A DNA stretch of 64,000 nt from assembly GCF_964355755.1 (NCBI RefSeq), contig NC_092673.1:14081001-14145000 (forward strand), given 5' to 3'. This DNA is from Antedon mediterranea. Its lineage: Eukaryota; Echinodermata; Crinoidea; Comatulida; Antedonidae. The position numbers and the translations under genes were made by a program. Numbering within the stretch: position 1 is the stretch's first letter; each line of letters begins with the position of its first letter. Shown here one piece after another: positions 30,224 through 58,243 of this stretch. The notes under the pieces are model-generated. The model was not told where the DNA came from and ran no database searches. It saw only the letters and a list, made by a program, of their open reading frames with translations.

Positions 30224-30602
30224 GATAGGGGATTGTAGGTTGTAATAATGTTAGTAAGAAGGGCATCATGCTTGTTTTAGGAGCAAAAGACAAAGTAGCA
30301 ATGACACAATTATTCGGAGATGAAGATGCGATTTAAAGACATCCATACAAATATTACAAGAAGAAGCATTTAATTCAATCTTTAATTTTGTTAGGGGTGG
30401 TGTTTTTCTCATGCAGGAGAAAAGGGTGCTATTGGGTATTTAAGCCGTAGAGAGTAAGTACGGGAAAAAATATATTCCAAAAAGAGTGTATAGTCCAGTA
30501 GCATAGTCATGTCGTCATGTCGTCGTGTCATGGAAACCAAGATTCAATAGGGTCAACTATTAATATGATAGTTGAATGTTTTGCAATTTGTTTAAAAGAG
30601 CT
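30224..30602. other. Short spacer before the tandem array
   Basis: AT-rich; no gene or element end seen. GTCATGTCGTCATGTCGTCGTGTCATG near 30507-30533 is a small local repeat. Confidence 0.35.
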
Positions 30603-33600
30603 AATTCCATTTATTCATGTTAAGAAAAATTATAAAATACATCTTTGTTTACATTGCCTAAATGGCCCGATAACATCTGTGGGGACTGTTATTACTGTAT
30701 TTCAGTAATGTTTTTTCTTTAATTCTCTACCTTCTTGCATGTAGACAAGGACTTAATAAAAGTTGGGGTGTGCATCATAAAAAAAATGAATAATAATAAA
30801 ATAAAAGAAAAAAAAAGTTTACTAATATGGTGAATACCTTACTGGTGGCCGACTTATTCTTCTCGATTGAGTTCTGCACACTGCAGCTGCTACAGCAGGC
30901 ACGGCCGCCACATCCGGCACCGCCACGTCAGGAGGCACCATTACCGGCACTGCTGGAGCAACAGGCACGGCCGCTGCCACAGCTGTAAGCCCACCATCAT
31001 CGAATTTTGGACTTGGAATGCTCAGCATATCAAAATGCCCACCTGCCATGCACATCTGATGCCAATTCGCTGCTGCCCTCCATGTTTCTGTCTCTGCATT
31101 GTAAGGTGGACAATTAGGAGGTGGGCGAAACACACATTCAGACGATGAACAAGAAGGTGAAAATGGTGGAGTGGTGCATTGTCGTGGACATCTTCGCTGA
31201 GGCGGTGTATGATGTTGTGGCGGTGAATGCTGTTTTCTTGGTGGGAATTGTTGTAGTCTGCGTAATCTAATGAAGCGTTCACGTTGTCATTGTTATCTCG
31301 TGCGTCTTAACTGTATTCTGTCTGATCGTTTTGTGGTCTGGGTGGTGAATGATGTCGTGGTGGTATTGACACACGTAGCGGGGAGCGATGACAACCTCTT
31401 GCAGTTCGGCCATAAGGATGAAACCGGCGACATTCCCGTTGTCGAAATACTACCTACTCATCTATCCGGACAACTCTACCGTAGGGACGGTAAAAACCGC
31501 CCCTGATGAAGGTAAACGCCTTGTTTAGCAATCTGTTAAAAATAGAAACAAAATATAATAATAAATGAGTGAAACAAATTAAACTTTAATCAATATGGTC
31601 CGTTTTTATATGAAATTGGTCCAGATTCTATTAATGTGTGTCACATATCAATATCCTATCAAATTCAAAGTGGGAGAAACAGTCTCTGTAAATTTTTCAA
31701 AAACACATTTTCTTAAATATTGAATATATTTGGCACTTTTATACAAATCAGAAATAATAAATGTACTTAAAGTTTCAACCCAATTTTGTTGAAAAATAAT
31801 CGAAAACACAAGGTTTTAATTCCATTTATTCATAAGAAAAATTATAAAATACATCTGTGTTTACATTGCCTAAATGGCCCGATAACATCTGTGGGGACTG
31901 TTATTACTGTATTTCAGTAATGTTTTTTTCTTTAATTATCTACCTTCTTGCATGTAGACAAGGACTTAATAAAAGTTGGGGTGTGCATCATAAAAAAAAT
32001 GAATAATAATAAAATAAAAGAAAAAAAAGTTACTAATATGGTGAATACCTTACTGGTGGCCGACTTATTCTTCTCGATTGAGTTCTGTACACTGCAGCTG
32101 CTACAGCAGGCACGGCCGCCACATCCGGCACCGCCACGTCGGGCACCATTACCGGCACTGCTGGAGCAACAGACACGGCCGCTGCCACAGCTGCAAGCCC
32201 ACCATCATCGGATTTGGACTTTGAATGCTCAGCATATCAAAATGCCCACCTGCCATGCACATCTGATGCCAATTCTCTGCTGCCCTCCATGTTTCTGTCT
32301 CTGCATTGTAAGGTGGACAATTAGGAGGTGGGAGAAACACACATTCAGACGATGAACAAGAAGGTGAAAATGGTGGAGTGGTGCATTGTCGTGGACATCT
32401 TCGCTGAGGCGGTGTATGATGTTGTGGCGGTGAATGCTGTTGTCTTGGTGGGGATTGTTGTAGTCTGCGTAATCTAATGAAGCGTTCACGTTGTCATTGT
32501 TATCTCGTGCGTCTTAACTGTATTCTGTCTGATCGTTTTGTGGTCTGGGTGGTGAATGATGTCGTGGTGGTATTGACACACGTAGCGGGGAGCGATGACA
32601 ACCTCTTGCAGTTCGGCCATAAGGATGAAGCCGGCGACATTCCCGTTGTCGAAATACTACCTCCTCATCTATCCGGACAACTCTACCGTAGGGACGCTAA
32701 ATACCGCCCCTGATGAAGGTAAACGCCTCGTTTAGCAATCTGTTAAAAATAGAAACAAAATATAATAATAAATGAGTGAAACAAATTAAACTTTAATCAA
32801 TATGGTCCGTTTTTATATAAAATTGGTCCAGATTCTATTAATGTGTGTCACATATCAATATCCTATCAAATTCAAAGTAGGAGAAACAGTCTCTGTAAAT
32901 TTTTCAAAAACACATTTTCTTAAATATTGAATATATTTGGCACTTTTATACAAATCAGAAATAATAAATGTACTTAAAGTTTCAAATTCCAAATCACCTT
33001 ATTATCCTAATAACCCAATTTTGTTGAAAAATAATCGAAAACACAAGGTTTTAATTCCATTTATTCATGGTAAGAAAAATTATAAAATACATCTGTGTTT
33101 ACATTGCCTAAATGGCCCGATAACATCTGTGGGGACTGTTATTACTGTATTTCAGTAATGTTTTTTTCTTTAATTATCTACCTTCTTGCATGTAGACAAG
33201 GACTTAATAAAAGTTGGGGTGTGCATCATAAAAAAAATGAATAATAATAAAATAAAAGAAAAAAAAAGTTTACTAATATGGTGAATACCTTACTGGTGGC
33301 CGACTTATTCTTCTCGATTGAGTTCTGTACACTGCAGCTGCTACAGCAGGCACGGCCGCCACATCCGGCACCGCCACGTCAGGCACCATTACCGGCACTG
33401 CTGGAGCAACAGGCACGGCCGCTGCCACAGCTGCAAGCCCACCATCATCGGATTTGGACTTTGAATGCTCAGCATATCAAAATGCCCACCTGCCATGCAC
33501 ATCTGATGCCAATTCTCTGCTGCCCTCCATGTTTCTGTCTCTGCATTGTAAGGTGGACAATTAGGAGGTGGGAGAAACACACATTCAGACGATGAACAAG

Positions 33601-36600
33601 AAGGTGAAAATGGTGGAGTGGTGCATTGTCGTGGACATCTTCGCTGAGGCGGTGTATGATGTTGTGGCGGTGAATGCTGTTGTCTTTGTGGGGATTGTTG
33701 TAGTCTGCGTAATCTAATGAAGCGTTCACGTTGTCATTGTTATCTCGTGCGTCTTAACTGTATTCTGTCTGATCGTTTTGTGGTCTGGGTGGTGAATGAT
33801 GTCTTGGTGGTATTGACACACGTAGCGGGGAGCGATGACAACCTCTTGCAGTTCGGCCATAAGGATGAAACCGGCGACATTCCCGTTGTCGAAATACTAC
33901 CTCCTCATCTATCCGGAAAACTCTACCGTAGGGACGGTAAATACCGCCCCATATGAAGGTAAACGCCTCGTTTAGCAATCTGTTAAAAATAGAAACAAAA
34001 TATAATAATAAATGAGTGAAACAAATTAAACTTTAATCAATATGGTCCGTTTTTATATGAAATTGGTCCAGATTCTATTAATGTGTGTCACATATCAATA
34101 TCCTATCAAATTCAAAGTGGGAGAAACAGTCTCTGTAAATTTTTCAAAAACACATTTTCTTAAATATTGAATATATTTGGCACTTTTATACAAATCAGAA
34201 ATAATAAATGTACTTAAAGTTTCAAATTCCAAATCACCTTATTATCCTAATAACCCAATTTTGTTGAAAAATAATCGAAAACACAAGGTTTTAATTCCAT
34301 TTATTCATGGTAAGAAAAATTATAAAATACATCTGTGTTTACATTGCCTAAATGGCCCGATAACATCTGTGGGGACTGTTATTACTGTATTTCAGTAATG
34401 TTTTTTTCTTTAATTATCTACCTTCTTGCATGTAGACAAGGACTTAATAAAAGTTGGGGTGTGCATCATAAAAAAAATGAATAATAATAAAATAAAAGAA
34501 AAAAAAAGTTTACTAATATGGTGAATACCTTACTGGTGGCTGACTTATTCTTCTCGATTGAGTTCTGTACACTGCAGCTGCTACAGCAGGCACGGCCGCC
34601 ACATCCGGCACCATTACCGGCACTGCTGAAGCAACAGGCACGGCCGCTCCCACAGCTGCAAGCCCACCATCATCGGATTTGGACTTTGAATGCTCAGCAT
34701 ATCAAAATGCCCACCTGCCATGCACATCTGATGCCAATTCTCTGCTGCCCTCCATGTTTCTGTCTCTGCATTGTAAGGTGGACAATTAGGAGGTGGGAGA
34801 AACACACATTCAGACGATGAACAAGAAGGTGAAAATGGTGGAGTGGTGCATTGTCGTGGACATCTTCGCTGAGGCGGTGTATGATGTTGTGGCGGTGAAT
34901 GCTGTTGTCTTGGTAGGGATTGTTGTAGTCTGCGTAATCTAATGAAGCGTTCACGTTGTCATTGTTATCTCATGCGTCTTAACTGTATTCTGTCTGATCG
35001 TTTTGTGGTCTGGGTGGTGAATGATGTCTTGGTGGTATTGACACACGTAGCGGGGAGCGATGACAACCTCTTGCAGTTCGGCCATAAGGATGAAACCGGT
35101 GACATTCCCGTTGTCGAAATACTACCTCCTCATCTATCCGGAAAACTCTACCGTAGGGACGGTAAATACCGCCCCTGATGAAGGTAAACGCCTCGTTTAG
35201 CAATCTGTTAAAAATAGAAACAAAATATAATAATAAATGAGTGAAACAAATTAAACTTTAATCAATATGGTCCGTTTTTATATGAAATTGGTCCAGATTC
35301 TATTAATGTGTGTCACAAATCAATATCCTACCAAATTCAAAGTGGGAGAAACAGTCTCTGTAAATTTTTCAAAAACACATTTTCTTAAATATTGAATATA
35401 TTTGGCACTTTTATACAAATCAGAAATAATAAATGTACTTAAAGTTTCAACCCAATTTTGTTGAAAAATAATCGAAAACACAAGGTTTTAATTCCATTTA
35501 TTCATAAGAAAAATTATAAAATACATCTGTGTTTACATTGCCTAAATGGCCCGATAACATCTGTGGGGACTGTTATTACTGTATTTCAGTAATGTTTTTT
35601 TCTTTAATTCTCTACCTTCTTGCATGTAGACAAGGACTTAATAAAAGTTGGGGTGTGCATCATAAAAAAAATGAATAATAATAAAATAAAAGAAAAAAAA
35701 GTTTACTAATATGGTGAATACCTTACTGGTGGCCGACTTATTCTTCTCGATTGAGTTCTGTACACTGCAGCTGCTACAGCAGGCATGGCCGCCACATCCG
35801 GCACCGCCACGTCGAGCACCATTACCGGCACTGCTGGAGCAACAGGCATGGCCGCTGCCACAGCTGCAAGCCCACCATCATCGGATTTGGACTTTGAATG
35901 CTCAGCATATCAAAATGCCCACCTGCCATGCACATCTGATGCCAATTCTCTGCTGCCCTCCATGTTTCTGTCTCTGCATTGTAAGGTGGACAATTAGGAG
36001 GTGGGAGAAACACACATTCAGACGATGAACAAGAAGGTGAAAATGGTGGAGTGGTGCATTGTCGTGGACATCTTCGCTGAGGCGGTGTATGATGTTGTGG
36101 CGGTGAATGCTGTTGTCTTGGTGGGGATTGTTGTAGTCTGCGTAATCTAATGAAGCGTTCACGTTGTCATTGTTATCTCGTGCGTCTTAACTGTATTCTG
36201 TCTGATCGTTTTGTGGTCTGGGTGGTGAATGATGTCGTGGTGGTATTGACACACGTAGCGGGGAGCGATGACAACCTCTTGCAGTTCGGCCATAAGGATG
36301 AAACCGGCGACATTCCCGTTGTCGAAATACTACCTCCTCATCTATCCGGAAAACTCTACCGTAGGGACGGTAAATACCGCCCCTGATGAAGGTAAACGCC
36401 TCGTTTAGCAATCTGATAAAAATAGAAACAAAATATAATAATAAATGAGTGAAACAAATTAAACTTTAATCAATATGGTCCGTTTTTATATGAAATTGGT
36501 CCAGATTCTATTAATGTGTGTCACATATCAATATCCTATCAAATTCAAAGTGGGAGAAACAGTCTCTGTAAATTTTTCAAAAACACATTTTCTTAAATAT

Positions 36601-37026
36601 TGAATATATTTGGCACTTTTATACAAATCAGAAATAATAAATGTACTTAAAGTTTCAAATTCCAAATCACCTTATTATCCTAATAACCCAATTTTGTTGA
36701 AAAATAATCGAAAACACAAGGTTTTAATTCCATTTATTCATGATAAGAAAAATTATAAAATACATCTGTGTTTACATTGCCTAAATGGCCCGATAACATC
36801 TGTGGGGACTGTTATTACTGTATTTCAGTAATGTTTTTTTCTTTAATTATCTACCTTCTTGCATGTAGACAAGGACTTAATAAAAGTTGGGGTGTGCATC
36901 ATAAAAAAAATGAAAAAATGAATAATAATAAAATAAAGGAAAAAAAAAGTTTACTATTTATGGTGAATACCTTACTGGTGGCCGACTTATTCTTCTCGAT
37001 TGAGTTCTGTACACTGCAGCTGCTAC
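30603..37026. repeat. Tandem array of a 1.20-1.24 kb unit, five full copies and one partial
   Basis: Unit starts, marked by TTAATTCCATTTATTCAT, are at about 30603, 31818, 33052, 34292, 35491 and 36723. The sixth copy stops at about 37026, where it meets the pogo remnant. Copies are very similar, differing by substitutions and a few small gaps. Units 2, 3 and 5 contain about 34 bases (near TTCCAAATCACC) that units 1 and 4 lack. Each unit carries a GC-richer coding-like block on the minus strand and an AT-rich block with poly-A runs. High similarity implies recent amplification or homogenisation. Confidence 0.85.
34979..35217 (-). other. Repeated exon-like block in each tandem unit (gag-like?)
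   Basis: In every unit a minus-strand open frame follows a good acceptor (TTTCTATTTTTAACAG, here about 35204-35219). It contains GGIYRPYGRVFRIDEEVV, then a Cys/His segment CRRFHPYGRTARGCHRSPL, and closes with a Pro/Arg-rich tail. The C-x3-H-x8-C spacing faintly recalls the 'C.YH..FG..A..C' box at the end of some retroelement gag proteins. Equivalent blocks lie at about 31300-31530, 32500-32740, 33754-33978 and 36187-36411. A second frame further along each unit is Pro/Ala-rich (FRPPPNCPPYNAETETWRAA in unit 1) and is shifted by an indel between unit 1 and the others. Function unknown; coding status unproven. Confidence 0.35.
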
Positions 37027-37703
37027 GTCTGGGTGTTCTTTGTTTGGTTTTTAATTTTTTTTTTCTTTTCTATTCGTTTTTCTTCTCTGACTCTCTTTCT
37101 TCTTTTGCTTCTTCTTCTTCCCTGTTCTTTTCTTCTTTCTCTCTGAGCATTTCTCGAAATATCGTTCCAGGACGTGTGGTCGTGATAAACGGTGGAGGGC
37201 AGTGGCTTGTCGGTGTCAACGGCGGAAGGATTGAATGGAAATAGACCACATTTCCGAAATTGCATTTTTCGATTTTGCGCCCTCTTTCCATGCCTCCGCA
37301 AACACCGCAGAGAAGGCTTGCTTGGTGATACTTGACCAGGATGGTGTACTCGCGACAACAGACGACGAGGGTCAGTGAAGACCTCCTCAACCATGTAGTC
37401 GGAACACTCCCTAAACCACCTCTTGATTTTATTGACCGTCACATCACCACGTTCCGTTCCTAGTGCCTCAGGTAGGCGCATCGATAGTTCTGGATGACGA
37501 CATAAAAAATTACGCGTCCATTGACGACCAGGCAAATTATCAACGAGAGGGTTTGGTCTGCCATCAGCATCCAGAAACTTCTTGGCTACTCTCTTTATTT
37601 CCGTTATTGTCCTTCCATAGCCAATCTTCGCCATCCCTATTGCCAATCCCACTAAACAATGTTTTCTTCGTAATGTTATATCTGTATAAAATAAACGGTA
37701 CAC
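37023..37703 (-). pseudogene. pogo-type transposase with the DDE core deleted
   Basis: A 226-codon minus-strand frame. The first half is the CENP-B/Tc5-like helix-turn-helix of pogo/Tigger transposases: GYGRTITEIKRVAKKFL, then DNLPGRQWTRNFLCRHPELS and MRLPEALGTERG. The family's DDE integrase-like domain should follow, but the frame jumps at about residue 126 to a C-terminal signature, KMQFRKCGLFPFNPSAVD ('AF+..G+.PF+P.A+'). A strongly basic tail (RERRKEQGRRRSKRRKRVRE) follows. The DNA-binding part is thus fused to the tail without the catalytic domain. It may be a product of internal deletion and could still bind element ends. It directly abuts the partial sixth unit of the tandem array. Confidence 0.65.
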
Positions 37704-38464
37704 GTACTGTTATAGGTCAATATTTCAAATATAAATACTGTTGAAATTACTTAAGATGGATGGACTGTGGATAAACTTTGCATTTAATGATTATTTGAAT
37801 AATGTTTATTACAATAATGTATATTAAGAAAAATCAAATTTTGTACCTATCTTGACTTGCAAAATATCGTTTTTTTAATTTAAAGTTTCACGGTAAACTG
37901 CTCGGACCTACGTTACGATCGAAGCAGCGAAGTAATTTTACAGTTCAGTGAGCAAAAACACGATTTTGTGCCATAACGGATTTCTACAATCCGCATTATT
38001 TATAGAATTTTCCTAAAAAAAAGCTATCATTAGAATTAAAAATATTATTTGAAAAAACAGATGTGGTTGTAAGATTTGTTTAATTATTGAGAAAGCATAC
38101 AGTTTGATAATGTCAGCCATAATGTACATTATGGTAAATATTTTAGAGATAGAAAAAGATCAATAAAATAGATCGACAATATGCAAATCCTTGTTTATTC
38201 TATAAATTTATAATTTGCTATCATTTTTATAATTATAGAAAAAAAGTTTTGTTCGGATTATGAGCTTCTTATTTAAACTAGGTTTAATGTGCAGAAACTG
38301 CTTTATTTAATAAAAAAATAAATGGTATGGGCCAAAAAAATCTTTATAATGTCCATTTTTTTCGCGAAGTACACACAAAGCAAAGAAAACAAATTTTAAT
38401 AACTGCAGAATATTTTTAATTTTAATCATTCATTGTTTTAATACAACTTTACTATAAAGTTCAT
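37704..38464. other. AT-rich spacer, possible left end region of the two-gene element
   Basis: No coding signature on either strand. It lies just outside the palindrome-bearing minisatellite. If the adjacent two-gene unit is a transposon, its left terminus should be here or at the array's outer edge. I could not see an inverted match to the right-hand side. Confidence 0.3.
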
Positions 38465-39073
38465 CTACATGGTCATAAACATTATGACTACAGTATATGG
38501 TTGAGCTATTGTTATAAAAACTACATGGTCATAAACTTGACTACAGTATTTGGTTGAGCTACTGTTATAAAAACTACACGGTCATAAACTTTATGACTAC
38601 AGTATATGGTTGAGCTATTGTTATATAAACTACATGGTCATAAACATTATGACTACAGTATATGGTTGAGCTATTGTTATATAAACTACATGGTCATAAA
38701 CTTTATGACTACAGTATATGGTTGAGCTATTGTTTTATAAACTACATGGTCATAAACTTTATGACTACAGTATATGGTTGAGCTATTGTTATACAAACTA
38801 CATGGTCATAAACATTATGACTACAGTATATGGTTGAGCTATTGTTATATAAACTACATGGTCATAAACTTTATGACTACAGTATATGGTTGAGCTATTG
38901 TTATATAAACTACATGGTCATAAACTTTATGACTACAGTATATTGTTGAGCTACTGTTATACAAACTAGATGGTCATAAACTTTATGACTACAGTATATG
39001 GTTGAGCTATTGTTATATAAACTACATGGTCATAAACTTGACTACAGTATATGGTTGAGCTACTGTTATATAC
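38465..39073. repeat. Minisatellite, 11 copies of a 53-57 bp unit built on a 17-nt palindrome
   Basis: GTCATAAAC starts at 38472, 38528, 38581, 38637, 38692, 38749, 38805, 38860, 38916, 38972 and 39029. The usual unit is 56 bp. Nine copies contain the palindrome GTCATAAACWTTATGAC. The second and eleventh copies have lost the right arm (CATAAACTTGAC). Each unit also has ACAGTATATGGTTGAGC. The array lies about 110 bp beyond the stop codon of the DUF7869-like gene. The same palindrome type occurs on the far side of the neighbouring gene pair at 45405-45608. Confidence 0.85.
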
Positions 39074-39184
39074 AATTATGAAATTGGTTGAAAATTAAAT
39101 AATTTTTTTAGATTCATTATACATGTAAAATTCCATTAATGTGCACCCTATTGTGACAACCAGTGAGTTGTAAAACTCCCTGCA

Positions 39185-41332
39185 TTAACTTTCATTTAAA
39201 AAGTCATCTCTTAATTCTTTTAATTTAACAATAACATTGGTAGGCAATCTACTAGTTGGTGTTAAATTAAATATACTTATCACCTCCTCCTTCGATATTA
39301 TTTCTTGCCATTCTTGTCCATCTTTTTCACACAGAACAAACCGGGAAGTATACGTTCCAGTGTACCACACTACTTCTACCTCATTGTTATTTATGCTGAA
39401 TATTTTGCCTATCTGAGGCCATTCTGTGGGATATCTCCTTAAAGCTGTTGCTACCATAGCACCAACATCGAGTTGCTGTGGTGGCTTACGCTTCGAAAAT
39501 TTACCAATGTGTACCTAGTAGTGTGGGAGAAAGCATAGAAAAGTCATAATCATTTTTCTTACAACCCTAAAAATATAGAATTTTCGTTGATGCATTTGCT
39601 TGATGCGATTATGAGATCATATCCCAAATATAAGCACTGCTTTAAACTATGTTGCATTACATGTTTCAAAGATGTAATTTAGAAAATCTATAATATCTTT
39701 ATCATACCGGTCTTATTTCATTTTCATTATCCGAGTCACTAATGTCTGTCTCGTTTCCATCAGATTCCTCCCTCATAGGGCTTGCATTGTTGTCATTAAA
39801 AATGATGTCATGGAGCAAAAATCTCTGTTCATTTCCTAAAAAAAAAAGAGTACGTATTAGTTTTAAAAAGTAAATAATATACATTCATACAAAATATTAG
39901 ATATATTTATGCTGAGGTGTTTGTTGCATAAAAGCTGGGCCAATACATTGCGCACCATGCTAATCAGATGCTGATTGATTGATTTTATCTTATGAATTAA
40001 TCAGGAGGCATGTTTCTCCAGTGTACTTCACTAGATATCGTTCATGTTATTTGATAATTTTAGGTTCTCACATAAAATGATCAGTGGAAGCATGCATTGG
40101 TGAATGTGACCCAACATAGTTGTGTGGAGTAAATAGTTGAATTTTGTTATAGCTGCTGAATCTATACTAAAATCAAAATTCTCTTGTTAACCAAAAAATA
40201 TATGTGTAAAATGGTGAAACATCACACATGCAATGTAGTACAGTACATACCTTCTGTGATCTCTTCTATATTATTTAAAAATTCCTCCCACCAGTCACGT
40301 TCTTCTATTCGCAAAAAATTTGCAACAGACGCCAGACTTTTTTTAAAACTTTGGTATATCTGCATTACTAAAATCAGGAGTACACAACACTGGTATATCA
40401 GCAGGGCTTTCCTTGAGCAAATATGGAAGTGTGTCCATTTCTCTTGCACATTCACACCAAGTACAATCCGTTGACCAGTTCTTATAGGACATGATGCATT
40501 TTCCGGTTTGAGCCAAAACAAACTTAAACTGGTGTGGTTTGCTGTGGTAACGTATGTCTTGCATGTATGGTACTAACCAGTTCTTAATGTCATGCAGATA
40601 GGAAATGATACTTGATGTAATCGGCAACTTTTTGTACGAGTTTTCAACAGCACTTCGAAGATGATCAAGTGTAGATGCTCTATATTTGTTCAGGTATTTG
40701 GCCACACATGAAAATAATTGGTCAATATCCTCGTGAGTGTGACCCACCATTAAAAACCCAATCTTTATCTGAAAGAGTAAAAGAAGTAATGATTTAAAAT
40801 TAAAACTTTTCAAAGCAAAATAAAAAAAACACATTTTTAGTATATTTCCATTTTTTCCTCATCTAGTTAGACTAGAATGTTATTGAATATTTTATGTCTT
40901 AATAGATAATTACCAATAGTAAATTAATTACTGTCCTATTAGGCTGGTGGAAATCACCCAACACAGGGGATATTTTGTGGTGAACGAGAACAGGGTAAAT
41001 GAATGATGAACTGGGTTCTTTAAAGTGCACTGTGTATACTGTTTTATTATTTATATATCATTTATAAATGTATAGTCATTTACCTTTCGAAAAATCTTTA
41101 ACTCTACAAGAAGAGCACATAGGGCAAAAACAAATCTGTTTTTATTATCCTTTCCGCTATTGTCCAACTGCAGATATAAGACTGGTGGTAGAGGTTGTAT
41201 CTCTGACAGCACCGTCAGTATAATGTTGCAGGTTAGGTTTGAGTCATGTGGAAACTGCTTTAGGTCAATGAAGCAGTGCCCATGTCGCCCATGTACCAGA
41301 ACACCAGTTACATGTGTGGCTAGTTTCCACAT
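39185..41332 (-). CDS. DUF7869-like, transposase-like protein, 4 exons, one frameshift
   Basis: Minus-strand exons 41332-41084, 40768-40251, 39835-39708 and 39514-39185 have GT-AG borders and compatible phases. Exon 1 has VLVHGRHGHCFIDLKQFPHD and LPPVLYLQLDNSGKDNKNRF. Exon 2 has IGFLMVGHTHEDIDQLFSCV and IEERDWWEEFLNNIEE. The 'LQLDN..+DNKN' and 'VGHTHEDIDQ.FS' blocks are what I recall of the DUF7869 family, abundant in aquatic invertebrates and likely an RNase-H-fold transposase relative (Asp and His/Glu/Asp clusters as candidate active-site residues). Exon 3 is acidic; the last exon has a small beta-rich segment (IFSINNNEVEVVWYTGTYTS). One extra base in a short homopolymer near 40343 shifts the frame; otherwise it is intact. 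The ATG at 41332 may not be the true start, since family members are usually longer at the N-terminus. Downstream lies the palindrome minisatellite. Confidence 0.6.
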
Positions 41333-41396
41333 CTTCGACGTTTCTTTTGATTTTTATTCACTTGGCGGAAATCATTTAAGAACAGCACTATCAACA
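41333..41396. promoter_or_regulatory. Putative bidirectional promoter/leader between head-to-head genes
   Basis: Only 64 bp separate the ATG of the minus-strand gene (41332) from the first good ATG of the plus-strand gene (41397). The plus frame is open further upstream (to about 41160, antisense to exon 1 of the other gene), so the plus start could be earlier and overlap. No TATA box is evident. Inference from gene layout only. Confidence 0.3.
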
Positions 41397-44300
41397 ATGA
41401 GTGAGAATATATTTAAACAATTAGAAGTGGCAGTCTATTTTGATGTAACAAAAACTGAATCACTACGTGTGGCATCTCGACATAATTTCGTCACAGGTAA
41501 TACTCACCAAGCAACTTTTGAAGACAACGTTGCAGTATGCCGCAACATTTTGCAAGATTACAATGACAAAGATGCAAAAACAACTTCGACATGGAGGAGG
41601 AAGTGTGCAGAGGCAATTGGCAAACAATCGTTCGAAAAAAAGGTATTATTAATATTATTTAAACAAGTTATTTAGGACTCTAATAATTAATAATGTAATG
41701 GTGATATAATTAATAATAATGTTGTAATTAATAATAATATATAGTAAATAAGGATATTAACAATAATAAAAGGATAATAACGATAATAATAAATAAGGAT
41801 AGTAATAATAAATAATAACTTTGTATTGCAGATAATATCGTCCATGGAACCGATGTTCCAAGTATCATTGTATACGGACCGATGCTACACAAAGGTTACC
41901 AAGCTGTTTGCCCAGTATAATGCAGGAACGGTAAAGGATTCCAAACCCGGAAAGCAATTGAAGCAGTCGGTAGGTTTCTTACCTTTATTTTCTGTCACAT
42001 TTATTGTCTCAATAGATTACTGGTGTATGCTTTTTTTTTGGCAAAAACAAACAAGCAAGAAACACAATCAGTTAATTATTAGTCTCAGTCACTTGCGGTA
42101 GAAACAACGCGTCTTAATTCAAAGGGTTAATAACTTTGTAAAAAACAATCTATTATTTATTAATTTATTTATTTTATACAGTTGTCAACCAACAGCGATG
42201 AAACCGCCACTAACAGGTTAAATCTAAACATAACAAACTATAAAAATGTATTCAAATTAGGCCTAATTTATTATAAAAAAAAACATTTTAAAATAGGCCT
42301 GTTTTTTCTAAAGGGGGGGGGGGGGGGGAGTGTGATTAACTTTGTTAAAACTAAAAAATGGCCTATTCAAAAATGATATGACTTGCATTAACAATTGTTT
42401 TGTTTTCTTCAATTGTTATCCACACGAGAGAAATGTTTATACTGAACCTCTTGAACCCTTATTGGAACGCTTTATTATTTGTTATCAGTATTGTGACTAA
42501 ACATTTTTTTACAATTCTATAGTTCTTCATGACACTACAAGGCCTGTCGGAAGAAGACAAGTTTGAATTGCTGTCATCTGTAACAGACGGAACAATGTCC
42601 ATTAAAGAGGTTGAAAATAAAGCACGGTCGATTAAGCAGATAAAGGTGATCAGAGGAAAATTTTTGACAACTATTAAAGTACTGACATGGAAGGAAGCGA
42701 CCGAAAGATTTCCAGAGCACACGACCGATTCTGCTCTTCGGCCTTTTTTAACAACAAGTAAGGTTACTTATGTTACTAATAGAATTCAGTCGCTGTATTT
42801 GTGCTATATTTCTAAAACCAAGTCCCACTCTGTCAGATTTTAAAAATTCGTACAAAATTGAAACAATTTAATATTATGCAGTTCGATGCAAAGGTACTTT
42901 ATTCGCACAAAACTACTATCCCTTATAGAAATTAAAATATTGAATTAATAATAATAAGACATTTTAATACATTTCTTTTGAAAGGGAAGTTATCTAAAAG
43001 CGAAATTCCACCAGGTTTATTCATGCATTGTCAAGATGCTCTGTTTTGGGAGGAACAAAAGCAAAGTCACCCTCAAGCGTCAACAGTTGATATTTTAACA
43101 GAAGATGGAACAAGATCAAAGTGTCAAGTTATGTCTGGGCCGTTTATTGGCAGAAAATTGACAGATATTGCCAATTCCAGTAATATGGGGTTACATCGTG
43201 GCCTGCTCGTACTGACAGAGGTTTGATATATTTTAAATATTTTATATTGTTTTGTATATTTGTAATTCATTCTATAGTGAGGGGTTTTCAAATTTGAAAC
43301 TAAATTGTTTTTTTACGGCCTATCAATGTGGCTTTACTAAGAAAGATTTTAATAGATTTATATAAACAACAGAACAAATATTCAAACTGTTTTTAGAGAT
43401 TATACAGCCGAACAATATTCAAAAATTCTACCCATTCTAACTGACCCCCCGAAGCCTGACACATGCAATTTTGCATAACACAGTAACATTGAGACTGCAC
43501 TGGTTTTGTTACTGTTGTTATTCTTATTATATTATTTTTTCTATGCTTTTTTTTTTTAGAAATGTGAAAAAGAAATGCTGATTTCTGATGTCATCGTAGT
43601 TGTTTGCAATAACGAGGACCTGCTATACAATATGACTATTTTAAAAGACAACGATAGAGTCATGCAAGTACAGTATTGGTACTGCGAAGAACAAGGTATA
43701 CCCAGTTTGTTATTGTATTTACAAATATAGTTCAGTCGTTTTTATTCAATTATAAATATAGGCCAATCATTGATTGGCAGTCTACTAAAAAATGTTCACC
43801 AATTTGCAATACTAACTGCTTTTTGGTATGAGGTGGATGGTGGGGTAATGGGGTTATTTCTTCTTGTGTCTAATAAAAGAAAAAAAAAAAGAAATGTACC
43901 ATTGATATTATTATTATTATATTCAAATATACAGGAAAGTTAATGTAAGTATGTAGGCCTACAGTTTAATGATGATTCCTATTTGTTTTTATTTAGACAC
44001 CATTCGCACGTTATTAGTAAGCCCTCAACACGAACGCATGATGAATGGAATTGGTGGCGTCATTAAGGGTAAGTCACTAGAACTGCTAATTAAGCAACTA
44101 GTGACAAGGCATAGCAGAGAAGGTCACTTAGTTGTAAATTGCCTAGGATGGAATGGTAAATAATACATTTATACCATAACTCATAATAATCATTCATTGA
44201 TGTTAACCAAAAACATACCGCGTGACAATTGGGCATGTCGCTAAAATCCAATCAAATGGAAAAAATTCTTGTTCTTTGAGTCATTACTATTGTCGTTTGT

Positions 44301-45043
44301 ACAAACGACATTAATGAACTAACAAAATAATTTAATATTCAATTGAAATCTATTTTATTGTTATTATAATTACAGTGTTCAAGGAAATAATTTTGCAACG
44401 GCGCAATTGTATAACCTTGCTCGAGAATGATGGGGAATCTGAATTAAGATCCAGATTAGTTCGTTTCAAAGAAGAAATTGAAAACAGCATTCAGCTTGAA
44501 AATGGAGCCCAATCGGATGGTAAGTTTAAGTTAAACTAACTTTATTGTTTATCTATTGTCATGGATGCTAATACGAAGAACAATATACAAGCGATATTGT
44601 ATACATTCAAGTCGCAATACAATGCTGATAATTTGATGTTTGTAGTGCAATATACTGCTACTTTTTGTTCAGGAATTTTAAAACGGCATATTAAGCTGTA
44701 TTCTCATAACTTGGACGGCATACTATGCTATCTGTATTGTAAACTTGTATAAACACAGCCCATGCATTTAATTTTTAATCAATATTCAAAATACCCATAA
44801 TCAATTTCTGACCCAATTTGAAACATCTAGTAAATACAAATTTAAAAAAAAAACAAGATGCTCTATTTTAAAATTTTGTTTACACAGAGCTTCTAAAAAA
44901 ATGATACAACTATTTAGAGGTCTATTAAATAATAGGGCGTTGGTTTATTCATCATTTCAGATGAGGACGACAGTACAGATGAGGAGGTTGAAGATAATGC
45001 GGAGATGGCAAATGAGGAGGACGACTACACATTTCCGGGGTGA
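41397..45043 (+). CDS. Intact 8-exon gene of unknown function, divergent partner of the DUF7869-like gene
   Basis: Exons 41397-41642, 41832-41969, 42523-42757, 42985-43220, 43560-43695, 43997-44068, 44376-44519 and 44961-45043 join through GT-AG introns with all phases matching. They give 430 codons including TGA, without any lesion. I do not recognise the family. Exon 1 starts MSENIFKQLEVAVYFDVTKT. The middle has PGLFMHCQDALFWEEQKQS and DVIVVVCNNEDLLYNMTIL (a hydrophobic beta-strand then NNED). Then come SPQHERMMNGIGGVIKVF and a coiled-coil-like Glu/Arg segment. The C-terminus is highly acidic (DEDDSTDEEVEDNAEM) and ends DDYTFPG. A small optional exon may lie at 42182-42247. No signal peptide or membrane segment is seen, so a nuclear or cytoplasmic protein is likely. 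Conserved phase across seven introns argues for selection until recently. Confidence 0.7.
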
Positions 45044-45189
45044 AAATAGCATTCATGATACTGGACACATGCCTTGCAGTCACATTTTATATAACTTTTC
45101 AAATTAATTTATTAAATTTATTCTGTGCCTTGTGATGTTTATATATATACTGTATATACAATTGAGAGACTAGTACTGTTCCGCCGTAC

Positions 45190-45262
45190 TACGACAGTGG
45201 TCTAATGGTCATCTGCATATCAAGCAGAATGTTCCGGGTTCGGATCTTGGATTGGGCATTCT
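45190..45262 (+). repeat. tRNA-derived sequence (SINE head or tRNA pseudogene)
   Basis: It has an A-box-like TGGTCTAATGGTCA, a perfect 5-bp anticodon stem TCTGC/GCAGA with a 7-base loop ATATCAA (anticodon position ATC), and a B-box-like GGGTTCGGATC whose CCGGG/CTTGG stem pairs with wobbles. The acceptor stem does not pair, so it is not a functional tRNA. Its place between the plus-strand gene and the right palindrome block suggests a SINE insertion. The SINE body and tail were not delimited. Confidence 0.55.
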
Positions 45263-45404
45263 CACTGATTTCCTCATCTTTATCGTTTAAAATTAAATAA
45301 TTAAATTTCACTGGGCGGTTTAGAATTATTAATAAAAAGCTTGTATAGCACACTAAAACTTTGTCTACTAATTATTTTTACAGAGAAATTCTTGTTTTTC
45401 TGAA

Positions 45405-45634
45405 GTCATAAATTTTATGACCTCATGGCAGCTTCACAATCATGTCATAAATATTATGACTTATGTGAAAATAGTCAATACCTTGAGGCCCGGAAATCAC
45501 AGCCTCATGTACTATAACCAGCGTATTCCGAGACATAACATGTAGTTTTAAATTGTCATAAATGTTATGACCTAATGACTGCTAAATTAATGTCATAAAT
45601 ATTATGACTTATGTTAAAATAGTCAATAGGCAGC
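45405..45634. repeat. Right-hand palindrome block: 150-bp tandem duplication with four 17-nt palindromes
   Basis: The palindromes GTCATAAATTTTATGAC (45405), GTCATAAATATTATGAC (45444), GTCATAAATGTTATGAC (45555) and GTCATAAATATTATGAC (45592) share arms GTCATAA/TTATGAC with the minisatellite on the other side of the gene pair. The block is a tandem duplication with period about 150 bp; both copies end with ACTTATGTKAAAATAGTCAATA. CATGTAGTTTT at 45539 is the reverse complement of AAAACTACATG in the left array, so the two sides may be in inverted orientation. Confidence 0.75.
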
Positions 45635-46950
45635 TACCATGTCGCTCGAATAATACACGCTGTTATCTGCTGTATATAGCCCATCACTTTATAACTTCTT
45701 TGTTGAATCTAATATATTATTACCGAGTATAAGGTGGTTAGGAGCTAATAATACTAAGCTTTAGAGCTGAGTGGACATGGGCCGCTACTACTGGTAATTA
45801 CACCAAAGTGTTTTGTGTATGATAATCGAAGTGCAGCTAGCTCTGCCAACAAATGCATGGATTAATACATTCATTTATAAAAATAGTTTTTAACACTCAG
45901 CTAGCTTTTATCTCATTATCATAAATGAAAACAAACAAGAATTGCCTTTTTCAACTACAAATAAAAACATATCATCCAAACTAATAAAACAGAAAAAAGA
46001 AACAATTATTCAATCAATATTATAGTTTATCGGCAAAGTAAGTTGATATATTTATGTTTCATTATACATTGTATTAAACTAGTTAATGTCGATGTATACA
46101 TTTATATAAAACAAGGTTTTGTTTATTAATTTCTCAGCGTTACTAAAATCAAAATATAAAACAAAACAAATTATACGGCAAGTTTATGTAAATAAAAATA
46201 ATTATAAGAGGAAATGTTTGTTATCGCTAAATTGTAGTATTTTGATAATATTGAAATCGATAAAAATCAAAATATGCATATTTTACGATTTTGTATACAT
46301 TTTAGCTATGAATGGCCAAAATTAAAGTAAAGGTCGATTTTGTTGAATCTACACAGACGTATAATGTTTGTACTGAAAAAAAAACGTGTTCAAAGTGTTT
46401 TGATTGGTTATGTTTAAAAATGTATATTTATGAAGTGGGCGCTAGAAAGCACAGAAAAGCAACTTTCCGACTTGGAGTAGAGTAGGCTAGAGGAATTATG
46501 ACCAAAGCAGCTGCGAGCGAAAGCGGCCGCCAATCCATAACAATGCATTTGTTGGAAACGCCAAAGCGTCATTGTGTATATTTGTGGGCGTGTTGCTTTG
46601 ATGCAGGACGCAATTGTAAAACATGTTCAGCCTGGATGGAAACTGTTTGGCCTTCTTCAAAAAGTAGCTTGCAAAGAAGATAGAAGCGCAGGTTGGCTTT
46701 TGTTTATTAAACAAGTTAAAAGCTTTTAAATCTTACATCGTTTGGTTCTTGTGTTTAGACGATTGTGATAGCCTTCCAAGTTGTTGTTGGTTTGTGTTTC
46801 TTGACGAAATACGACCCAGTCAATAGGGTTAAATACGTCGTCTATCCAGTACGACCGCATATATTTAACCATCACAGTCCGTTGTAGTCGCCGGAAAACT
46901 GCCTTGTAATCAATTGTCGAATGAAGTTCCGGGTACCAACGTCATGCATG
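45635..46950. other. Spacer, no gene recognised
   Basis: AT-rich to about 46440, then a GC-richer patch (46440-46690) with short open frames on both strands, none with a known motif. If the two-gene unit is an element, its right end should lie in the first part of this stretch. No obvious inverted repeat to 37.7-38.5 kb was found by eye. Confidence 0.3.
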
Positions 46951-46953
46951 TCA

Positions 46954-47668
46954 TTAAATTGATGCTTCATAGTCTTTTACTATCTGTACCATGTTGACGG
47001 CAGGCAACATCCCACTGTCAAGATACCTGTTGAAGAAAAGAAAAAAAAGTCCTTGATTTGTTTTCTTGGTGATTTTATGTCCAAGATCTGCAATTACATC
47101 TGCATCATGAGCATTTTTAACAAGTAGAAGAGACAACTCATTGAGTAACTTGTCGATCTTTTGATGCAGTGACTCTATTCTGTCAGCAGAATGCTGTCAA
47201 GGGATAGAAGCTGCATACAAATGTTGCATTTAAATACTTTATTTGGGTCTTCTGAAACAAAGAACGGTTCATTTAAAGCACAGTTTGTTCTTTCACTTGT
47301 GAATGTATCATTTAATGGTTTCCTGCTGTTGTTGAAGTAAGTCAAGCAATTTGGTCCATAAATGTCTGTAAATTCAAATGATGGCGTGGTGGTATAGCCA
47401 TTACAAATCCGCGAATGGCAGGTTGTACAAATGTATATAGGTTGTGAATTTACATTTGTTAGATTTAGTGCCAATTTGCCTACAAAAAAGAAAAAGAAAA
47501 TGTCTCATGCAAGCATATATAATCAAGCATATACCTAGATTTTCCAAATAGAACAGTAGAATTGATCGTGTGGTAAGAAGATGTCTGGTTTGTATCAGCA
47601 GTCGGTGGATTCAGTTTATTGCGAGAACCTGGACAGGCTTTTTGGGATGGTGGTGAGGGATGAAACAT
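46954..47668 (-). pseudogene. Unrecognised Cys-rich gene fragment with intron-like gap
   Basis: The minus frame 47175-47474 follows an acceptor (TTTTTTGTAG at 47480) and has ICTTCHSRI and FKCNICMQLL, two CxxC pairs that could bind zinc, after LALNLTNVNSQPIY. Upstream, 47480-47668 (NKLNPPTADTNQTSSYHTIN) ends near a GT donor. Downstream, in another frame, LHQKIDKLLNELSLLLVKN looks like a coiled coil, and 46954 closes a short acidic tail. Phases between the pieces do not all match, so it is probably degraded. I do not recognise the family. Confidence 0.3.
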
Positions 47669-48040: not shown

Positions 48041-49569
48041 GTCAAATCAATCAAATCAAATCAAATCTTTATTCGTTCCATATAAAATAAATTGTACATG
48101 GAAAAATTGTTTTCCTCGACAGAAAAATATGGTAAAACATTCATAATTACATCATACATAGAACAAATTTACAATTTAAAAACATTAATTAAAACATCCA
48201 TCAACAGTAAACGTATCAGCTCTAGGAGCCCGTAACCGGCCTGACTTGTTCTTAAAAAATCTCATATGTAATGGATGTTTCTTATCTTCTAAAATTTTAC
48301 TTAATTTACTTAGGACCTGTTTTTCATAAAGATATTTTAAATCATTAACCGTACAACCAATTATATTTGATGCTATCTTAGTATATTCTAATACTAGTAC
48401 TGAATAATTTTAAAGTACCACAGCTAACATTAAATTTATTTAGCTTTCTTAGGAAATATAACCTTTGGTGACCTTTCTTAATTATCTCGGCCGTATTTTT
48501 TTCAAAACTAAGTTGATCATCAATATGTGTACAAAAATATTTGGTTTCATGAACACGTTCAATTGTCTGATCATTAACTATCAGATAACTTTTTTCTTTT
48601 TCCTAAAATCCCATATAATTTCTTTAGTTTTATTAAAATTAATCTTAAGGTAATTGTCATTGCACCATGACATTAATTTTACATATTCAGCCTTATACAC
48701 ATGATCGTCAGCATTTTTCAATAGACCAATCAGTACCATGTCATCTGAGTATTTGATTATATGACACATGCTACATGAAGATCGACATTCACTAGTATAT
48801 ATTGTAAATAAACTTGGTGACAGACAACACCCCTGGGGTGCACCAGTGTTGATCCTTGTAATCTCTGAGATAGATTTACCAACTTTAACATACTGTAGCC
48901 GATTTGTAACAATTTGTTGTCTAACAAGGTTATAATAGCATCATCGACCCCTCTATTACATTGATATGCAAATTGGTTATTATCCATAAAATCACTACAT
49001 TCAGACATTAGTTGACTTCTAACAATTTTCTCAAGGATCTTCATTAGAATAGATGTTAATGCCACTGGTCTGAAGTCGTTAACGATTTTAGGGTTACACA
49101 TTTTCGGAACAGGTATAATCTCAGAGACCTTCCATAGATCAGGTACCACCCCCGTGTTCAGTGAACACTGGAAAAGCTGGCTTATTATTGGTGAAAGCTG
49201 AGAGGCACATGATCTAATCAAACGCCCTGATACAACCTCCGGACCCTTTGCTTTACTAACATTTACCCTTTCCATATATTTCTTTCTTTCATCTTTTGTA
49301 AGCGGAGGCTTATTATTATTAAATATTCTAATTTTCTTTTTGGGTAAGATCAACACCCTTTTAACTCATTAACCTTATCCTCAGACCACAATAATCTTTC
49401 TATAATAATAATGTTTCGGAATAAGTTTAATACAATTATGATCAGAATTTCCTATACCTGGTAATTTATAAGCCTTATAGGCTTCACTAATATTCCCAAA
49501 ACACTTATCTAATACATTTTCTTTTCTAGTAGCACATTTAACATACTGTCTATACACATACACATACAT
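48041..49569 (-). pseudogene. 5'-truncated LINE (CR1/L2-like) with endonuclease end, RT and 3' tail
   Basis: Read on the minus strand: the end of an APE endonuclease (NVLDKCFGNISEAYKAYKL, LPGIGNSDHNCIKLIP with the conserved SDH; 49381-49569); then the RT fingers and palm (VNDFRPVALTSILMKILEKI; NQFAYQCNRGVDDAIITLLD; 48757-49356); the active site YSDDMVLIG (48581-48769, the YxDD box); then EIIKKGHQRLYFLRKLNKFN and, near the end, LEDKKHPLHMRFF with SGRLRAPRAD. The last block is a hallmark of CR1-related ORF2 C-termini. The element closes with a short repeated tail, GATTTGATTTGATTTGATTG (48041-48069). Several frame changes inactivate it. Confidence 0.75.
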
Positions 49570-54398: not shown

Positions 54399-55490
54399 AT
54401 GGCTACGGCGAATAGTAATATGCCTAGCCTGCCTGCATTTGATGTGCACGCCGATCTCGCCAGCAGAGCGACGAGGTGGACCAAGTGGCTGAAGCGTTTT
54501 GAGCGAGCCATGGTAGGCTTTGGAATTACAAATGATGCCCGAAAGAGAGCACTGTTGTTATTCTATGGAGGGTTAGAGTTACAAGATGAATTTGACACCC
54601 TGCCAGATCAAGATACTGGTGGTGATGGTGGTACGTACACACAGGCCAAAGAAGCCTTGACAACACATTTAACCCCAAAAGGTAACATTGATTATGAAAC
54701 GATAATTTTTCGGAGAATGAATCAGGAGCCTAGTGAGAAAATAGACCAGTACTGTAGTAGACTGCGTCTACAGGCTGTTAAGTGTAATTTCAATGACATT
54801 ACCAGAGAAATTAAAACACAGATAATTTCAGGATGCAAAGACAGCCGATTTAGAAGGCGTATCCTAGAAAAGGAAAGAACATTGACACAAATTCTTGATT
54901 TAGCACGGTCTGTTGAGTTGTCAGAAAAAAGGGCAACAGAGGTTGAAGGAAATTCATCCCAATCAGCTGTAAATGCGACAACAGAATCTGTGAATGCGAT
55001 GAAGTTTACAAATCGTAGCCGTTCAAAGAAATATAATGGTACAAAGAATCAAAGTCAATATAATAAATCCACTTACAAACAAAAGTCAAAACCAGCAGGA
55101 AAATCATCAACATGTAGAAAATGCGGTTTGGCATACCCACATGAGGCTGAGTGTCCAGCAAAAGGTAAAATTTGTAATTCATGTGGTAAACAAGATCATT
55201 ATGCACGAGTTTGTTTCACGAAAGGCAAACAACAAGTTAGCAGAGTGGAAGAACAGGTGTGCAGTAGTGGTGCAACAGGAGATACAGATTATGCAACAGA
55301 TCCAGAATATGCTTTTGTTCTCCCAGGACCATCAAAAAAGTTACCAACATGTGATATGATAGTCCACTGTAATAACAAGGTACAGATGCAAGCACTTGTA
55401 GACACAGGAGCGTCAGTGAACGTGATGGATAGTGTTTCATTTGATAAGATAGTACCCAAGCCAACAATTGACAAACACAAAACAAAATAA
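54399..55490 (+). CDS. Gag with zinc knuckles, running into aspartic protease (broken end)
   Basis: A 363-codon frame. Residues 27-45 have RWTKWLKRFERAMVGFG and then a capsid-like helical region (LLFYGGLELQDEFDTLP; IDQYCSRLRLQAVKCNF). A basic linker precedes two zinc knuckles at about residues 240-275: CRKCGLAYPHEAEC and CNSCGKQDHYARVC (CX2CX4HX4C). The end carries the protease active site ALVDTGASVNVMD. Gag packages the RNA, and the protease cleaves the polyprotein. The frame stops where an (AAAAT)n-like stretch (about 55482-55512) interrupts the protease; the rest of the protease and pol continue in another frame. Confidence 0.85.
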   Translation: MATANSNMPSLPAFDVHADLASRATRWTKWLKRFERAMVGFGITNDARKRALLLFYGGLELQDEFDTLPDQDTGGDGGTYTQAKEALTTHLTPKGNIDYETIIFRRMNQEPSEKIDQYCSRLRLQAVKCNFNDITREIKTQIISGCKDSRFRRRILEKERTLTQILDLARSVELSEKRATEVEGNSSQSAVNATTESVNAMKFTNRSRSKKYNGTKNQSQYNKSTYKQKSKPAGKSSTCRKCGLAYPHEAECPAKGKICNSCGKQDHYARVCFTKGKQQVSRVEEQVCSSGATGDTDYATDPEYAFVLPGPSKKLPTCDMIVHCNNKVQMQALVDTGASVNVMDSVSFDKIVPKPTIDKHKTK

Positions 55491-55512
55491 AATAAAAATA
55501 AAATAAAATATC

Positions 55513-56451
55513 CATTGAATCCACACAGAAGTGTATAGAGACTGAGTTTTATATAGTACATGGTAATACAGGAAATTTGTTATTGGTAAAATCAAAGATG
55601 TAGAGATCAAGTTACACATCGACACAACAGTACCAACAAAGGAACAAAAACACAGGAGAATACCATTTCATGTTCGTGCTGATGTTGATCGAGAGCTGAA
55701 GCGATTATCAGAACTTGACATCATAGAGAAAATTGAAGGACCAACACCGTGGGTCAGTCCAATCGTTGTAGTACCGAAGAAAAATGGAGTTCGTTTATGC
55801 GTTGATATGCGTGAAGCGAACCAAGCTATCAAGAGAGAAAAACACCCAATACCAACGTTAGATGAAATTGTATCTGATTTGAATGGTGCATCAGTGTTTA
55901 GCACATTAGATTTGTCATCGGGATATCATCAATTTTCACTCCATCCTGAAAGCAGATATATTACAACGTTTAGCACACACGTCGGTTTGTTTCGTTACAA
56001 ACGGTTGATGTTTGGCGTGAATTCTGCCCCTGAATTATTTGCAGCTGCAGTAAGAAATTTATTGAGCGGGTTAAATGGATGCAGAAACATATCTGATGAC
56101 ATAATTATTTTTGGAAGGACAAAACAAGAACATGACATAAACCTTAAAGCAGTTCTTGAAAGATTGAAGCAATGTGGAGCAACTTTAAATAAAGAGAAAT
56201 GTTGTTTTGCTCAACCAAAGGTTAAGTTTTACGGACATACATTCAGTAGTGACGGATTAGCTGCTGATACACAGAAGATAGAAAGTCTCAAGAATGCTCC
56301 ACGACCACAGTTGGCAAGTGAAGTAAAGTCCTTGTTAGGTATGGCTCAGTACTTGTCACGGTTCATCTACAATTACGCTTCGATTACAACACCATTGCGA
56401 GAGCTTACTCATCAAAATAGCCAATGGAAATGGACAGGTGTTGAAGAATAA
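55513..56451 (+). pseudogene. Ty3 reverse transcriptase domain
   Basis: Frame 1 holds the RT: PTPWVSPIVVVPKKNGVRLC, VDMREANQAIKREKHPIP, VFSTLDLSSGYHQFSLHP, then YKRLMFGVNSAPELFAAAV and the active site ISDDIIIFG (the FxDD box, here S before DD). It ends with KSLLGMAQYLSRFIYNYAS. An in-frame TAA at 56449-56451 separates RT from the RNase H part (SFKDLKKAL follows directly). The first part (55513-55620) lies in changing frames after the AAAAT insertion. Confidence 0.85.
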
Positions 56452-57807
56452 TCATTTAAAGATCTAAAGAAAGCTTTAATTAGTTCTGATGTAATAACTT
56501 ACTTTGACATTAACAAGAGAACAAATATTCTAGTAGATGCAAGCCCTGTAGGCCTGTCAGCTATTATGTGCCAAGATAGTAAAGTGATAGGATATGGAAG
56601 CAGAGCATTATCCGATGTTGAAACGAGATACTCACAAACCGAGAGGGAAATGCTAGCTGTTGTATACGGTGCTGAACATTTTCATTTGTACGTATATGGT
56701 GCAAAGTTCAAGATAACAACGGATCACAAGCCATTACTAGGAATCTTCAAAAGTCAAAAACAGATGTCCGCAAGGATTGAGAGATGGCGATTGCGACTAA
56801 TGCCATATGATTGTGAAGTGATCTATAGACCAGGTATTGACAACCCTGCAGATTACTTGAGCAGACATCCTACTTCAACAGATACACAGACAGAAGTTAG
56901 TCAAGATGTTAATATGATAGGAAGTTATGTAAACTATGTTGTACAGAACAGTGTTCCAAAGGCAATGACCAAACAAGAAATTGAAATAGAGAGTGATCGT
57001 GACGAAACATTCAAGAAATTGAGGAAAGCTGTTGAAAGTGGAAAGGATAAAGATTGGAAACATCCTTTGTTGGAACCATTTAAAAATGTGAAAGATGAAA
57101 TAGCAGTAGTAGATAAAATCATATTACGAAGACATCAGATAGTTTTACCAGAGACATTGAGAGGAAAAGCTGTAGAATTGGCTCATGTAGGACACCAAGG
57201 GATCGTAAAGACTAAAGCATTGATACGTGAAAAAGTGTGGTTCCCTGGAATAGATAAAATGGTAGAACGACAGGTTAGAAAATGCCTAGCATGTCAAGCG
57301 ACTGTATCTACGAATGCAGAGAAACCAGAACCATTGAAGATGACAGAATTACCAACATTACCATGGACTGAAGTGGCAGTTGATTTTAAAGGACCAATGC
57401 CAAATGGAAAATATTTGCTTGTTGTATATGATATGTATAGCAGATTTCCAGAAGTCGAGATAGTTCAGTCGACATCAGCGAAAGCAACTATTCCGAAATT
57501 AGATGCGATATTCGCAAGACATGGCATACCTAATATAGTATTGTCAGATAATGGACCTCCATTTAACAGTCATGAGTTCGAGCAATTTGCAACATACCAA
57601 GGGTTTAAACATCGAAGAACGACTCCATTATGGCCGAGAGCAAATGGGGAAGTTGAAAGATTCAACTTCCCCAAGTTCTTCAAACTGCAAGTGTTGAGGG
57701 AAGAAATCCGCATCAAGCGTTATATGAATTCCTCAGGCAGTATCGAGCAACCCCACATTCAACCACAGGGAAAAGTCCAGCTGAACTATTATATGGAAGA
57801 AAAATAA
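56452..57807 (+). pseudogene. Ty3 RNase H and integrase
   Basis: Same frame as the RT. RNase H: ILVDASPVGLSAIMCQDS, YSQTEREMLAVVYGAEHF and TTDHKPLLGIF. Integrase: an HHCC zinc finger (AHVGHQGIVKTK ... CLACQ), then VAVDFKGPMPNGKYLLVVYD (first Asp), VLSDNGPPFNSHEF (second Asp), and RANGEVERFN (Glu). Right after ERFN the reading frame is lost (a shift near 57663), so the frame ends at 57807 with unrelated residues. Confidence 0.85.
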
Positions 57808-58243
57808 AAATATGTTTTCCATCACTGACTAAAGTAGACGAGAAGAATGATGTAGAAGTTGCAAACAAAGATAAAGAACAGAAGAAGAAAATGAAAGATA
57901 GCGGAGATATGTATTTGCATACAAAAGAAAGCGATTTGAAAGTTGGAGACAAAGTGCTTGTAAAGCAACAAAAGAAGAATATGTTAACAACCCCGTTTGA
58001 CCCAGATCCGTATATTGTAAGTTGGAGAAAAGGAAATGCTATAATTGCAGATAGGAATGGTATAAAAATTAGAAGGAACATTTCTCATTTCAAGAAAATA
58101 AACATTTTTAATGATTATGAGTCAGACGTCGATGATGATGTAGTAGAAAGACCCCAAGATGTAAATGATCAACAAGAACCAAGACGACCGCAAAGGAATC
58201 GACGAATGCCCGCAAGATATAATGATTTTGTGTTGGACCAATA
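57808..58243 (+). pseudogene. Ty3 integrase C-terminal part (out of frame)
   Basis: The frame at 57891-58243 gives SDLKVGDKVLVKQQKKNML, PDPYIVSWRKGNAIIADRN and IKIRRNISHFKKI, the usual SH3-like end of Ty3 integrases ('+..GD.VL++.......P.++P.Y.V.....+......G....RN.S.+K'), followed by a proline/arginine-rich tail with RNRRMPARYNDFVLDQ. It is displaced from the upstream integrase frame. Confidence 0.8.

Follow-up and report, generated by a model that had tools for sequence, protein, structure and literature searches.

In a 64,000-nucleotide stretch of the genome of the crinoid Antedon mediterranea (NC_092673.1, positions 14,081,001 to 14,145,000; hereafter the window, with positions counted from its first base), a DUF7869 gene on the minus strand and a crinoid gene on the plus strand lie head to head, and one palindrome is repeated just past the 3' ends of both genes. 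We tentatively favor the explanation that this locus is what remains of a two-gene DNA transposon, a degenerate and immobile copy without its middle. Such an internally deleted element would account for all parts of the locus, including the common break of the two genes and the shared palindromes outside them. An earlier note, made from the sequence alone, had proposed a single mobile element here. The palindromes outside both genes and the transposase-like predicted fold of the DUF7869 proteins agree with that proposal, but the element is not intact and no convincing terminal inverted repeats were found.

The shared palindrome and the junction

The palindrome GTCATAAANNTTATGAC (GTCATAA-N3-TTATGAC) occurred 13 times in the window with all 14 fixed arm bases exact. 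All 13 sites lie shortly beyond the 3' end of one or the other gene, in two repeat blocks on the outer sides of the pair, as the earlier note had described; none was found elsewhere in the 64 kb. From base composition, 0.0008 exact sites per 64 kb would be expected for the 14 arm bases. When 100 dinucleotide shuffles were searched on both strands with up to two mismatches, the mean number of matches was 0.43 (maximum 3) against 26 observed strand-wise, and thus the sharing is hard to attribute to chance, on which point the note was right. Permitting three mismatches added weak sites at 5539, 42366, and 42481 and two damaged units of the left block. Exact palindromes with 7-base arms and a spacer of 0 to 6 bases numbered 135 in the whole window, and two families alone had at least three copies: the GTCATAA palindrome itself, which appears in two registers, and a palindrome that belongs to a 1.2-kb tandem array at 30–37 kb. 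This tandem array (30300–37030) consists of about six head-to-tail copies of a ~1.2-kb repeat, several of them sharing a short open frame. It ends 1.4 kb to the left of the palindrome array, and an ATTACTG palindrome is present at six places within it.

The left block (38465–39072, no strand assigned) starts ~110 bp past the stop codon of the DUF7869 gene and contains 11.0 units of 56 bp with 94% matches. The count of 11 units in the note was correct, but by sequence match the palindrome is intact in only nine of them (38472, 38581, 38637, 38693, 38749, 38805, 38861, 38917, and 38973); the other two share the same 3-base deletion inside the palindrome. The right block (45405–45608, also without strand) starts ~360 bp past the stop codon of the plus-strand gene. 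It holds four intact palindromes (45405, 45444, 45555, and 45592), the number the note had given, arranged as two pairs of diverged duplicates with ~150 bp between them. By eye, the 12 bases flanking the palindromes show no resemblance between the blocks, and therefore the blocks are alike in the palindrome alone and are otherwise unrelated, again as described. The independent occurrences of the palindrome are effectively few: roughly one in the left block, one or two in the right. In the nine intact units of the left array, the arms carried fewer mismatches than the remainder of the unit, but the difference was not significant (mismatched cells 0/126 versus 10/378, Fisher P 0.07). Since the palindrome was also found in 88 stretches of viral contigs (a single site per locus among the 80 loci listed), it is not rare by itself in large collections. 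Rfam gave three matches, all sub-threshold, two of these on left-array units.

The two genes break at the same place. At the junction (41350–41361, no strand), DUF7869 homology on the minus strand stops at 41350, which corresponds to Ser161 of the relative P0003. Homology of the plus-strand gene to its relative P0002 extends upstream of the ATG to 41352–41361 (FYSLGGNHLR in the window, FIPLGGNHLR in P0002) and ends there. Neither gene is complete when compared with its relatives: each is without its 5' part, and the divergent broken ends are within ~10 bp of each other. The shared break is most simply explained by a single deletion that took the 5' portion of each divergent gene, while an inversion or another join would give the same appearance. 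An intact two-gene element was rejected, both genes being 5'-truncated at one junction. Copies of DNA transposons commonly end up internally deleted.

The two genes and their surroundings

The DUF7869 gene occupies 39185–41350 of the minus strand, with exons at 41350–41084, 40768–40251, 39835–39708, and 39514–39185 placed by hand-read GT-AG sites. Its product matched Pfam DUF7869 (PF25273) over profile positions 7–192 of 192 (E 2.9e-73; score 246 bits, profile cut-off 26). The family assignment made in the earlier note was therefore confirmed, but the note had overlooked that the gene is 5'-truncated, and its frame is broken by a one-base shift in a T/A run near 40350, in the exon 40768–40251. 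The closest relative is the A. mediterranea protein P0003 (99% identity), with which the window copy aligns from residue 161 onward; in our own reading of the sequence, homology extends beyond any usable splice acceptor as far as Ser161. Residues 1–160 of P0003 could not be located in the window, and across the 22.6 kb on the right, residues 1–165 matched nothing better than E 1.7. Within the 64 kb, a gene model with the plus-strand gene nested in an intron and the N-terminal DUF7869 exons far upstream was rejected, as nothing better than this match turned up there. A second DUF7869 gene remnant lies at 18229–18489 on the minus strand. It is a stop-containing match (E 0.004 with P0063, E 0.024 with P0003) to the conserved IIDGMDQ stretch, which is absent from the main copy.

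In predicted structures, the DUF7869 proteins have an RNase H-like fold, with a core like those of integrases and Mos1 and a DDE-type pattern, and by this predicted fold the family looks like a transposase core. The structural comparison covered the families of the VIA list. Foldseek alone placed PWWP domains and ribosomal proteins among its ranked hits as well, presumably because of the C-terminal barrel. The candidate catalytic residues are kept across relatives (D145 in 95 of 96, D223 in 114 of 118, and E262 in 117 of 120). The PF25273 profile starts at residue 162 of P0003, after the first strand and the first conserved aspartate (D145) of the predicted core. A transposase-like core whose first catalytic candidate lies outside the Pfam domain suggests a testable role for the whole DUF7869 family. 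Because the window copy begins only at residue 161, it lacks D145 and does not carry all three acidic residues, which argues against the intact element of the earlier note. In Pfam searches of P0003 and 36 relatives (E up to 0.01), all 37 proteins matched DUF7869 and none matched a PIF/Harbinger, piggyBac, or other transposase; RFX_DNA_binding, DUF5506, and UEV were matched by one member each. Judging by listed names, the family occurs in sea urchins, a brittle star, molluscs, corals, amphioxus, and a sponge, with no stated function. The name DUF7869 was not mentioned in the 5.39 million papers searched, which mostly did not include subscription papers and bioRxiv.

The plus-strand gene (41352–45043, including the homology upstream of the first ATG at 41397) has eight exons (41397–41642, 41832–41969, 42523–42757, 42985–43220, 43560–43695, 43997–44068, 44376–44519, and 44961–45043) separated by seven GT-AG introns. 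The note had called it an unrecognized eight-exon gene; its 429 codons are open and it has no Pfam match (Myb/MADF and PIF included), but the loss of its 5' part had been missed. The top relative is an uncharacterized A. mediterranea protein (97% identity, covering 79% of the query), and the second is P0002 of Anneissia japonica (52% over 59%; 53–68% when aligned piecewise). No other relatives were found in 5.8 billion proteins. An alignment-based search recovered just these two again, and as it requires shared 5-residue words, distant relatives may escape it. P0002 residues 46–185 gave a best E of 1.8 anywhere in the window. The N-terminal ~50 residues of P0002 are a piece of a retroelement integrase (PF17921), and because this prediction is chimeric, the true N-terminus of the plus-gene family is uncertain. 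Other searches with the plus gene gave a single NCBIfam match far below the cut-off, weak PHROGs matches to families of unknown function (best E 0.016), and PDB sequence matches with a best E of 0.096. The 164-residue N-terminal piece of P0002 had three chance-level matches in plasmids (E 4–10) and none in phages. A structure model of the plus protein built from two sequences was too poor for use (predicted local distance difference test score 46.5).

By eye, residues 113–276 of P0002 resemble what we take to be a ParB/Srx domain, a likeness that neither Pfam nor profile comparison confirmed. Pfam found no ParB domain in the plus gene or P0002 at E up to 10. When the N-terminal part of P0002 and its Antedon overlap were compared by profile with 80 bacterial ParB proteins, 33 residues aligned in the expected register (P 0.039), at a probability of 1.3% against 1.56% for the best of 40 shuffles, which is no better than the shuffled controls. 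In a survey of the ParB fold, sulfiredoxin is the commonest eukaryotic form, and words starting with "transpos" or "metazoa" are absent from its main text (PMC12704722); since its main text is silent on transposons and metazoa, the ParB idea gains no support from it. Among viral contigs, 12 pattern matches to DUF7869 relatives and 59 to plus-gene relatives were found, and none was confirmed.

The region around the gene pair is repeat-rich. A retroelement at 54399–58244 has reverse transcriptase, RNase H, and integrase domains that Pfam recognizes, and inspection by eye adds a gag-like frame; we take the element to be Ty3-like. Its integrase zinc domain shares 53% identity with the integrase piece at the start of Anneissia P0002. 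Minus-strand fragments at 11585–12052, 25432–25716, and 48757–49356 matched rve integrase, MULE transposase, and RVT_1 (below cut-off). To the left of the palindrome array, a 226-residue open reading frame on the minus strand (37023–37703) has no Pfam match; to us it looks like the DNA-binding region of a transposase of the pogo/CENP-B-like kind. Past the plus gene but before the right palindromes, 45185–45260 contains letters that we take to be tRNA-like A and B boxes, perhaps of a short interspersed element. Neither ARAGORN nor Rfam called this segment, whose 43-base core occurs only once in the window, and ARAGORN, used with the bacterial code, predicted no tRNA.

Possible origins of the locus

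If the locus is the remnant of a two-gene transposon, one gene would have encoded a DDE-type transposase of the DUF7869 family, and in intact relatives strand transfer is predicted to be carried out by the DDE-type core. The divergent second gene would have encoded an accessory protein, probably DNA-binding. A dimer of one or the other element protein may have bound the GTCATAA-N3-TTATGAC copies near both ends, so as to pair the ends or regulate them. A later deletion would have taken the middle and the 5' parts of both genes, similar to internally deleted copies of other transposons, and the window copy would now be dead. We infer from the arrangement that genes and palindromes once formed a single element and that the palindrome was a protein site.

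A comparison of the flanks (36900–38466 with 45608–47500; exact seeds of 11) found no inverted repeats longer than 15 bases, and the best matches were T/C-rich or A-rich runs; the element ends may be short or degenerate. The clusters of the plus protein and of the DUF7869 protein in A. mediterranea, with nine members, are each recorded on one contig. For both relatives this contig has the same length, 28,587,047 bp, in agreement with a single element. The members may be isoforms or local copies, and their restriction to one contig is an argument against a young, widely dispersed element. Judging by titles or abstract openings, none of the listed papers on transposable elements of crinoids or Anneissia dealt with such a gene pair.

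The missing ends could also be expected if the two genes were chance neighbors, that is, a DUF7869 transposon remnant and an unrelated crinoid gene fragment brought head to head when repeat-rich DNA was rearranged, with the palindromes being host protein sites or local repeats unlinked to the genes. This is possible, though we consider it doubtful. Both genes are broken at the junction and pieces of other elements are nearby (the retroelement at 54.4–58.2 kb and the rve, MULE, and RVT_1 fragments), but chance neighbors leave unexplained why the same 14-base palindrome flanks the pair at either side yet is absent from the remainder of the 64 kb, where 0.0008 sites are expected. It is unlikely that the locus is a transposase-derived pair kept by the host, with regulatory palindromes, comparable to the co-domesticated PIF/Harbinger pairs of insects. 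Co-domestication of a transposase and its partner is documented (PMC9710019), a single contig is recorded per cluster, and the plus gene has 429 open codons, with 97% identity to the A. mediterranea protein and 53–68% piecewise identity to the Anneissia protein, but in the window DUF7869 copy the frame is broken and the N-terminal 160 residues are gone. More improbable still is that a DUF7869 DDE transposase and a divergent ParB-fold-like partner acting on parS-like palindrome arrays at both ends represent an undescribed superfamily of animal transposons. The Antedon locus would then, with equally little probability, be an internally deleted remnant and an animal counterpart to the ParB-like gene described from algal transposons. 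Least likely, the palindromes work as DNA or RNA hairpins at transcript ends or in replication: they are 3' of both genes, can form 7-bp stems, and gave single-strand DNA folding z-scores of −1.58 (one left unit), −3.47, and −5.06 (two right segments), whereas a hairpin needs only pairing, the arm bases are identical between unrelated blocks, and no compensatory change is present in the 13 intact sites.

If the gene pair and the palindromes are one element, as in the two-gene transposon we favor, they would represent a new transposon design, in which two proteins are combined with a defined binding site, and would provide a route to finding intact copies in crinoids.

Comparison with known transposon systems

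When the same literature was searched for ParB, DNA transposon, metazoa, and transposase, a study of a brown alga was the only one found. The protein of Sola1-1_Ec32 from the brown alga Ectocarpus also bears a DNA methyltransferase domain, whereas the crinoid plus gene has no Pfam domain and its likeness to ParB was not borne out by the tests. Kolobok elements encode a DDD/E transposase and lineage-specific accessory proteins, and the KolobokP lineage is present in echinoderms (PMC9587614). Set beside Kolobok by description only, the Antedon locus would be similar in combining a transposase with a putative accessory protein, but the DUF7869 proteins match no other Pfam transposase.

Similar to PIF/Harbinger elements, the Antedon locus has two genes, one for a transposase-like protein and the other for a putative DNA-binding partner. 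The Myb-like protein of Harbinger3_DR recognizes a 9-bp motif in subterminal regions (PMC9710019), whereas the Antedon motif is a 17-bp palindrome in arrays, terminal inverted repeats were not found, and neither gene has a PIF or Myb/MADF Pfam domain. The left and right ends of piggyBac hold identical 19-bp palindromes that are bound by transposase dimers, through two cysteine-rich domains of the dimer (PMC11707139). The Antedon locus resembles piggyBac and piggyBat in having palindromes on its two outer sides, but its putative transposase belongs to another Pfam family, its palindrome is present in nine plus four copies, and it has a second gene.
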